A DNA stretch of 34,477 bases. Source: Halobacteriales archaeon SW_6_65_15 (GTDB lineage Archaea > Halobacteriota > Halobacteria > Halobacteriales > Haladaptataceae). Below the pieces are notes generated by a model. It did not search any database, had not been told where the DNA came from, and saw only the letters and a list, made by a program, of their open reading frames with translations. Made by a program: the position numbers and the translations under genes. Location of the stretch: positions 6,849 to 41,325 of the forward strand of contig PXSM01000149.1 of NCBI GenBank assembly GCA_003023465.1. Reading direction: 5' to 3'. Position 1 is the first letter of the stretch. The number at the start of each line of letters is the position of its first letter. This document shows positions 22,659 through 24,969 of this stretch, piece by piece.

Positions 22659-24672
22659 TTACCGAACCTTCGTCCCCGGCTCGCTGTCGCCGTGTGTCGT
22701 CAGCAGGTCGGCCTCCTCGCCCGCGGCGAGCACCATTCCGTTGCTCTCGACGCCGAACAGCTCGGCCTTCTCCAGATTCGCTACGACGACCACCTTCTCG
22801 CCGGGCAGTGCGTCGAGGTCGTGGAGTTGCTTGATGCCCGCGACGATCTGGCGGGTCTCGACGCCGATGTCCACTTCGAGGCGCGCGAGGTCGTCAGCGC
22901 CCTCGACGCCTTCGACGGTCTCGATTCGCCCGACGCGGACGTCGAGGTCCTGGAAGTCTTCGAAGCTGATGCGGTCGTCTGCGATGGGTTCGATGTCGGA
23001 TTCGTCGGTCATGGGTTCGTCCTCGGGGTCGGTCTCCTGTTCGTCGTCCGATTCGTCCTCGGCGGCGGCTTCGATGCTCTCCTGTAGCGTCTCGTTGAGT
23101 TCTTCGACACCCTCGTCTTCGATCTGTTCGAACAGTTCGTCGGGTTCGCCGAACGCGCCCGGCGGGGATTCGAGGCAGGCGTCGAGGTCGGCGTCGTGGA
23201 CCGACCCGGATTCGCCCAGCTGTTCCCAGAGAGTCTGGGCCTTGTCGGGGAGGATGGGTGCCGAGAGCACCGCGACGGCTTTTGCGAGCTGGACGCAGTC
23301 GTAGATGACCTGCTCGGCGCGTTCAGGGTCGTCACCGGTCAGGTTCCACGGCTCGTTGCGCTGGATGTACTCGTTGCCGAAGCCGGCCAGCGAGAGCGCG
23401 GCGTCGCCGAGGTCCTTGAGCGAGTAGTCCCGGACGGCGACCTGGAACTCCTCGGTGGCCTCCGCGATGCGCTCTCGGACCTCCTCGGAGGTATCCGCAC
23501 CGTGGGACGAGGTCCCACGAGCTTCCGAGCGTGGCTCGGAAACGTCCGGAGCCCCGTCGTAGTTCCGGGCCGCGAACAGCAGACTCCGGTAGGCGAAGTT
23601 GCCCAGCGTGCCGACCAGTTCGCCGTTGACGCGCTCCTGGAACTTCTCCCACGAGAAGTCCACGTCGTTCTGGAAGCCGCCCGTCGTGGTGAGGTAGTAC
23701 CGGACGAGGTCGGGGTGGAACCCCTCGTCGAGGTAGTCGTCGGCCCAGACGGCGCGGTTGCGGCTGGTCGAGAACGCCGCCCCGTCGAGGTTGACGAAGC
23801 CGCTGGCCATCACCGCGCGGGGCTCGTTGTAGTCTGCCCCGTGGAGCATCGACGGCCAGAAGACGGTGTGGTGCTGGATGATGTCCCGACCGATGACGTG
23901 GATGATCTCGCCCTCCCCCTTCCAGGGTCGCTCCCAGTCGAACTCCTCGTGGCCGACGCGCTCGGTGTACTGCTTGGTCGAGGAGACGTACTCGATGGGG
24001 GCGTCCACCCAGACGTAGAGGACGAGGTCGTCGGCGTCGCCTTCGGAACTCCTTGAGGTAGTCCTGAAACTCGGAGACCCGGAAGAACTTGTGGGTTCGC
24101 TCGCGGTACTCCGCGGGGTTACCGCTGATGGCGGAGACGGGGTCCTCGATCTCGCCGGGTTCGAGGTGGCGGCCACAGCCCTCGTCGCACTCGTCGCCGC
24201 GAGCCTCCGCGCCGCAGTAGGGACAGGTCCCCTCGACGTAGCGGTCGGGGAGCCACTGGTCGTCGGTGGGGTCGTAGGCGACCTTGATCTGCTTCTCATA
24301 GATGTGGCCCACCTCGTCGAGGGCGCGAACGATCTCGGTCGTCAGCTCGGTGTTGGTCTCGTCGTGGGTGTGGCCGTAGTTGTCGAAGTCCACGTTGAAC
24401 TTCGGGAACGTCTCCTCGTACTTCTCGTGGTGTCGCATCGCGAACTCCTCGGGGGAGACGCCCTCCTTCTCGGCGTTGACCGCCACCGGGGTTCCGTGCA
24501 TGTCCGACCCCGAGACGAACGCGGTCTCCTGCCCGAGCGTCTCCAGTGCTCGGGCGTAGGCGTCGCCACTGATGTACGTCCGGAGGTGGCCGATGTGCAG
24601 GTCGCCGTTGGCGTACGGCAGGCCGCACGTGACCACCGCCGGGTTCTCCGTCGGGAAGTCGTCGTGGCTCAT
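22659..24672 (-). pseudogene. metG: Methionyl-tRNA synthetase with fused tRNA-binding domain, frame broken
   Basis: It charges tRNA(Met). From ATG 24672 (MSHDDFPTENPAVV) the N-terminal part has GDLHIGHLRT (HIGH motif), zinc ligands CPYCGAEARGDECDEGCGRH and VSEFQDYLKEF, where the frame is lost at about 24043-24046. The other frame takes up at EGDADDLVLYVWVDAPIEYV and continues through the KMSKS-like AAFSTSRNRAVW and the anticodon domain. It ends with an EMAP-II-like tRNA-binding domain, FQDLDVRVGRIETVEGVEGA to KVR. I estimate 40-50 codons lost, the stretch that normally carries QPREWIEG-type and DMDWG-type motifs. The C-terminal linker (around 23501-23541) contains a double palindrome in frame. 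The enzyme is essential, so the gap is probably an assembly fault. Confidence 0.92.
23501..23541. repeat. Double-hairpin palindromic insert inside metG
   Basis: Two perfect palindromes, each 8-bp arms with a 3-nt loop, are placed 3 nt apart: CGTGGGACGAGGTCCCACG (23501-23519) and TTCCGAGCGTGGCTCGGAA (23523-23541). They are translated in frame as part of a hydrophilic linker (SEPRSEARGTSSHGAD) between two helices of the anticodon-binding domain. The symmetry is far beyond chance for coding DNA and suggests a small mobile palindrome that tolerates translation. Confidence 0.75.
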
Positions 24673-24969
24673 ACTATGCAGTCCTCCCTCGCGGGTGTAA
24701 AACCCGCCGATTTCCGTGTTCGGGCATGGATTTTTGATTCGTTCTCGGTAGGTGCAACTGTTTGGCGATTCGACCAACGAGCCGGGTTTCGCCACCGCAA
24801 AAACCGTCCGCGTGTCACGGTCCGGGCGACTCCTCCCGACGCTATGCGGTGCTCTCCGTGCGCATACGCATAGCGTGCGAGGGTGCCGTCGGCAGGTATC
24901 GAGGTCTGTGGACCGTGACTGGCACGTTCTCCGGTTGGGTGTCGTGATATTTAAACGTTGGTTCGGGAC

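Follow-up and report, generated by a model that had tools for sequence, protein, structure and literature searches.

A 45-bp double-hairpin repeat in frame in metG and other genes of the Halobacteria, very probably a non-autonomous mobile element

The best-known examples of protein-coding palindromic elements come from AT-rich, reductive intracellular bacteria. As described in two accounts (PMC10969869, PMC3767692), the palindromic elements of Rickettsia (RPEs) and Wolbachia stand in frame in unrelated housekeeping genes and add a peptide to their products; RPEs form several families in alphaproteobacteria and are 100–150 bp long (size from PMC3767692). Coding palindromic repeats are also cited for the archaeon Methanocaldococcus jannaschii (PMC2996958), and because of that citation coding palindromes as a general idea are not new to archaea. 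The GTAG- and CGTC-tagged REPs are short hairpins with covarying stems, often paired and sometimes intragenic, and the reported families are bacterial (PMC3733652); the CGTC REPs have no known transposase and carry a CGTC tag, an 8–9-bp stem starting with A/T pairs, a 4–5-nt loop and a CCA tail (PMC3733652). Haloquadratum contains PATEs, which PMC3119063 describes as transposase-free, palindromic, lacking target duplication, as short as 52 bp and matching IS605-type termini, together with small mobile repeats of 80–110 bp with terminal inverted repeats. The element reported here was not found described in haloarchaea in the literature searched, most subscription papers being beyond the reach of the search.

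The window is a stretch of 34,477 nucleotides from Halobacteriales archaeon SW_6_65_15 (contig PXSM01000149.1) and includes metG, in which a first-pass annotation had noted two palindromes inserted in frame at 23501–23541. Both are present where it placed them, with perfect 8-bp arms and 3-nt loops: CGTGGGAC-GAG-GTCCCACG at 23501–23519 and, 3 bases from it, TTCCGAGC-GTG-GCTCGGAA at 23523–23541. The in-frame insertion is real, but there is one insertion and not two, the palindromes being the two hairpins of a single element, and comparison with uninterrupted orthologues sets the limits of a slightly larger unit, 23499–23543, of exactly 45 nt. Judged from sequence comparison, this feature is very probably a copy of a palindromic mobile element of 45 bp, non-autonomous and belonging to the class Halobacteria. 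The features of the locus are as follows.

22659..24680, (-) strand: host gene metG (methionyl-tRNA synthetase), matching the solved MetRS 1rqg_A and others
23499..23543, (-) strand: 45-nt element (GTTTCCGAGCCACGCTCGGAAGCTCGTGGGACCTCGTCCCACGGT), encoding VSEPRSEARGTSSHG in frame with metG
23501..23519, (-) strand: hairpin A, CGTGGGAC CTC GTCCCACG, 8 bp, 3-nt loop
23520..23522, (-) strand: spacer between the two 8-bp palindromes, GCT on the metG strand
23523..23541, (-) strand: hairpin B, first in the metG reading direction, TTCCGAGC CAC GCTCGGAA, 8 bp

The insert (VSEPRSEARGTSSHG) runs along the minus strand from 23543 to 23499 and comprises 15 codons, and an exact gap of 15 aa (45 nt) is present at its position in at least 25 metG orthologues of the same family. 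When metG genes with and without the insert were compared, as the first-pass annotation had proposed, all others displayed lacked it (19 and 22 genes in two overlapping sets, 25 together), which is the opposite of a sequence conserved in every metG and found nowhere else. The residues flanking the insert, NYDGAPD and ADTSEEV, are shared with relatives such as G013, and the junction at the DNA level is GAC|GCG. Because the nearest relative in the metG tree, G023, lacks the insert, this copy was most likely gained after the two species parted. When the host protein is aligned with the MetRS of Pyrococcus (1rqg_A), the insert is in a gapped region that separates the catalytic part from the helices after it, and in an AlphaFold model of the host protein, of modest mean pLDDT (51.6), it forms residues 165–179 within a stretch (160–180) of pLDDT below 50 between two helices. 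The GCT spacer is conserved in the family, with G22, C23 and T24 invariant in alignment A1, and hairpin B has 8 bp in the metG copy compared to 7 bp in the family model. We also note an apparent frameshift in metG at window positions 24035–24060, where ORFs 24795–23332 (N-terminal) and 24299–22659 (C-terminal) overlap near 24045 in different frames; metG is one long open frame in nearly all relatives and, since the source assembly is fragmentary and 62% complete, this is possibly an assembly error.

Palindromes of this size are singly not rare, with 1.3 ± 1.2 expected in the window and 4 observed, and the expectation of about one per window is what a chance origin in a variable, GC-rich linker would draw on. 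The pair goes beyond chance, however, because other genes contain it again as a single unit. When up to 2 mismatches are allowed, CGTGGGACNNNGTCCCACG is found at 9 sites in its own genome compared to 0 for the reversed pattern, and several of these sites represent the two-hairpin unit within further genes, where it is read in the same frame (VSEPRSEARGAESHG, VDEQRSSARETKSHG, YASNDASARRTESDG and VDGLRPSARRTESDG). The exact recurrence of the unit in other genes and species, together with its precise empty sites, refutes coincidence, to which we give practically no weight.

A covariance model of the two-hairpin unit was built from seven copies, and it matches the metG copy with 67.1 bits (E 3e-12). 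Dispersal of the element is class-wide: the model finds the unit in all 28 of the 28 genomes of the family with 1–37 copies each, in genomes of the same genus with 5–37 copies each (E up to 0.5), and in 219 of 292 Halobacteria genomes (E up to 0.001), these genome-wide counts resting on a search that scored at most 150 candidates per genome, with copy numbers and frame proportions not free of bias because R1 was trained for the most part on forward copies within genes. Among the carriers are Halorussus aquaticus, Haladaptatus pallidirubidus and Natronococcus sp. A-GB7. Across a phylum sample at E up to 1e-4, 20 of 197 genomes match, all in the window's own order, and about 160 genomes from other classes of the phylum gave no match to the model at that threshold. 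Copies also occur in arrays, with three head-to-tail at exactly 45-nt spacing and read as a 15-aa repeat (L085:2960-3093), and three at 45-nt spacing in G033 (C1:1571287-1571420). The latter genome also has three pairs of copies at a constant spacing of 68 nt, not a multiple of three (C1:555834/555902, 1109548/1109616 and 1520512/1520580), possibly reflecting a larger repeated unit.

The stems covary strongly, and the palindromes are maintained as the sequence changes. In an alignment of 77 copies, which was fitted to the model and contains related copies and so leans towards structure, although the original seven copies agree with it, 98.3% of stem cells are paired and 14 of the 15 stem pairs have changed on both sides. 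Double changes number 261 compared to 73 in shuffles, and the covariation score is 0.625, compared to 0.209 in shuffles and at most 0.114 in slid controls; covariation extends to all 7 modelled pairs of hairpin B and to 7 of the 8 pairs of hairpin A. Only 21 of about 1083 paired cells (about 2%) are G-U or U-G, and the rarity of such pairs among strongly covarying stems favours pairing at the DNA level, i.e. a DNA hairpin. Folding of the metG copy gives z = -5.1 as DNA and -4.5 as RNA. A structured RNA or a selected peptide function (translation pausing, an RNA-stability element or a salt-adaptive linker) could also keep such an element, and would accommodate the strong covariation, the stable RNA fold and the hydrophilic peptide. 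We consider this very unlikely, since the low G-U proportion is unlike that of a typical RNA helix, the host genes have no function in common, the element is missing from most orthologues, and two entirely different peptides are in use. In 8 loci compared with Rfam (E up to 5) nothing matched on the element itself; weak matches to the families HgcC and sot0042 lie downstream of the unit and were set aside.

The element is mostly found within genes and in both orientations. By the codon-usage score of the flanks, 62 of the 74 copies examined lie within coding sequence, and 58 of these 62 are on a codon boundary, 39 in forward frame 0 and 19 in reverse frame 2 of the 44-nt hit, which correspond to the two orientations of the 45-mer on a codon boundary. 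In four genes of the window 66% of CpG steps are at codon boundaries, and 58 of 62 exceeds the 66% expected from a C|G target alone (P about 3e-7), with selection and target preference mixed in the frame bias. Among 45-nt copies the reading in use contains no stop in any of 33 forward or 19 reverse cases, with a mean hydropathy of about -1.35 in each. As the proposal of the peptide as a signature for finding other copies would have it, SEARGTESHG-type peptides and their DNA are present inside many unrelated proteins. The unit is read two ways to give only two hydrophilic peptides, SExxSEARxTESHG forward and VEHGSTSNRxxxDD in reverse, and it is also present in non-coding tnpB 3′ regions.

Host proteins identified with Pfam are varied, and include RNase Z-like proteins, S9 and M24 peptidases, riboflavin synthase, iPGM, TruB, TsaD/Kae1, a class I tRNA synthetase (ValRS-like), Pus10, a Cys/Met PLP enzyme, a PolX-like protein, an E1-E2 ATPase, a FAD-binding (NadB-like) enzyme, a GlmM-like protein, PheT, an ABC ATPase, IMPase and histidine kinases. 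A further host is a putative DUF255/YyaL-like protein, a label read from sequence, the fragment giving no Pfam match at 1e-8. The histidine kinases are a hot spot with 13 of the 62 in-gene copies, and because their own motif NAVEHGS is similar to the end of the unit when read in reverse (AVEHGSTS), insertion there may be guided by short homology, which we offer as a suggestion only. In histidine kinases across the class the N-box motif N(A/S)VEHG is occupied by a single copy or by several, some of them in arrays (L038, L040, L042, L063, L074-L076, L078, L083, L087, L092 and most of L132-L142), and one histidine-kinase-like ORF contains two directly abutting copies in opposite orientations, both in frame (L075:2969-3056).

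Precise 45-nt insertions relative to empty orthologues are present in nine protein genes and one non-coding locus. Orthologues of nine hosts were located in the genus by one combined query and eight were aligned, and both filled and empty forms were found for eight genes besides metG: those for the DUF255/YyaL-like protein, riboflavin synthase, RNase Z, the NadB-like enzyme, iPGM, IMPase, GlmM and PheT. The inserts, forward or reverse, are 45 nt long, but 48 nt in riboflavin synthase and PheT, and they occupy short Asp/Gly-rich turns (e.g. FKD|GDVAI). The target is biased, the first host base after the insert being G in 49 of 52 copies compared to a background of 50% (P about 8e-12), and the codon before it begins with G in most copies; because the unit also begins with G, the cut can be placed only to within one base. 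At the aligned filled and empty sites, target duplication was not seen to exceed one or two bases. In iPGM the element occurs at two different sites in two Halorussus genomes (L046, L080).

In the DUF255/YyaL-like protein the insert occupies one shared site in Halorussus, Haladaptatus and Natrialbaceae (L024, L030, L031, L033, L235, L239 and L241), and most Halorussus lack it. This pattern could arise either by recurrent insertion or by repeated loss, and because one site is filled in several families, part of the spread of the element may be due to vertical inheritance or gene transfer and not to new insertion. Copies from different genera at this site differ by paired changes in both stems, which could reflect co-evolution, template-switch repair or separate insertion. 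It can be argued more broadly that there is little or no transposition at all, and that a few ancient copies were spread by gene transfer and homologous recombination of host genes; the shared DUF255 site, the agreement of filled genes with host phylogeny, and the many histidine kinase copies at one motif, which may recombine, are in keeping with this. We nonetheless find it improbable, as alleles with and without the insert, their flanks otherwise unchanged, occur in nine or more unrelated genes, and the metG insert is confined to one genome, where it is nearly identical to that genome's DUF255 copy (41 of 45 positions, by eye).

In G022, and in seven genomes from other genera, the unit is also located 3′ of IS1341-type tnpB genes. 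Plasmid BLAST reveals tnpB 3′ versions shorter by 44–45 nt, and in the alignment the empty forms read GCCGTC|GTTGAC, with the 45-mer in between in the filled ones; the 45-nt length is thus a property of the element and not of frame selection alone. As tnpB 3′ forms exist with and without the 45-mer, the alignments indicate that one tnpB lineage carries the unit as a passenger. An origin from tnpB 3′/omegaRNA hairpins, prompted by the G022 copies adjoining tnpB, was rejected, since exactly this unit is missing from related tnpB 3′ regions of Haloprofundus, Haloterrigena, Natrinema and Halorussus, and from most tnpB loci. Separately, BLAST of the tnpB 3′ region L010:1365-1735 gave 64 Klebsiella plasmid records, known by record listing alone, among 106 matching.

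The same tnpB copies bear on whether the unit is what remains of IS605/IS1341-type transposons reduced to their termini, like the PATEs of Haloquadratum, and is moved by a Y1 transposase (TnpA). Such a remnant would have palindromes and no target duplication and could adjoin tnpB, as some copies do, and terminal-only PATEs of 52 bp are described from haloarchaea in PMC3119063. We regard this as unlikely, although less so than the alternatives above, since the copies in tnpB 3′ regions are themselves insertions for which empty alleles exist, and 30 tnpB loci of the genus have only 2 confident matches to the model, neither at an element end. Moreover, Y1 transposases are absent from 8 of 18 genomes of the genus, including the copy-rich G011, G018 and G021, although such an enzyme may have mobilised the unit in the past. 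A Y1 transposase as the current mobiliser was rejected, there being by inspection no positive relation with copy number, as was a haloviral vehicle, the strict DNA pattern having no match in viral contigs.

For the mobile element that we favour, we envisage that the unit as single-stranded DNA would form two adjacent hairpins and would be copied to new sites reading mostly G-A/G-C|G, with target duplications of at most one or two bases. Most insertions would keep the frame because 45 nt equals 15 codons and GAC|G or GGC|G is usually on a codon boundary in GC-rich genes. Copies in surface turns (Asp/Gly-rich loops) would be tolerated, because both codon-boundary readings are stop-free where used and strongly hydrophilic, and those damaging the protein would be lost. 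It would be the hairpins and not the peptide that are maintained, most likely because a recombinase or a replication template-switch recognises the folded single strand, the form in which the element presumably moves; one tnpB (IS1341-type) lineage with a 3′ copy may have helped it to spread between genomes. More tentatively, and as a possibility that we hold well short of conviction, the 15-codon length, the codon-boundary GRC|G target and the stop-free hydrophilic readings may be adaptations to harmless insertion into genes, in a class-wide archaeal gene-invading element that would be moved as a single-stranded double hairpin independently of known Y1 transposases.

Gene-invading DNA of this type is known mainly from Rickettsia, and here it would be represented in free-living haloarchaea by a unit of 45 bp. 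Haloarchaeal hosts are genetically tractable, and with dozens of copies and clean empty sites both the movement of the element and the usefulness of the added protein sequence are directly testable. There is also a consequence for annotation, in that 15-aa inserts in conserved enzymes could pass for functional linkers.

First, by the features compared with known systems it is not a GTAG REP, a CGTC REP or a PATE. The aligned copies have no GTAG tag and the Y1 family is missing from 8 of 18 genomes of the genus; the loops are mostly of 3 nt and the GC-rich stems do not start with A/T pairs, unlike CGTC REPs, although the host C and the GTC after it, with which the unit opens on its 5′ side, are similar to the CGTC tag without being constant. 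It also differs from REPs in being mostly inside genes. Like PATEs, it is transposase-free, palindromic, haloarchaeal and without target duplication, but its palindromes are not at IS605-type ends (2 of 30 tnpB loci, neither terminal), and frame-preserving insertion in conserved genes does not appear in the available part of that description (PMC3119063). MITEs have terminal inverted repeats matching a transposon and usually a target duplication, and the unit has neither a target duplication nor a terminal inverted repeat spanning it. Secondly, the repeats of M. jannaschii, as cited, are likewise coding palindromes in an archaeon, but of a different archaeal class. Thirdly, as in RPEs, a palindromic repeat is found in frame in unrelated protein-coding genes, but the unit is 45 nt (48 in two hosts) and not about 100–150 bp, consists of two hairpins, is read in both orientations, is GC-rich, and was found only in Halobacteria in the searches made. 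The likeness to Rickettsia remarked on in the first-pass annotation applies to the way of working. The best explanation is that the haloarchaeal element works like the RPEs but represents a separate family, set apart by its length and known host range.
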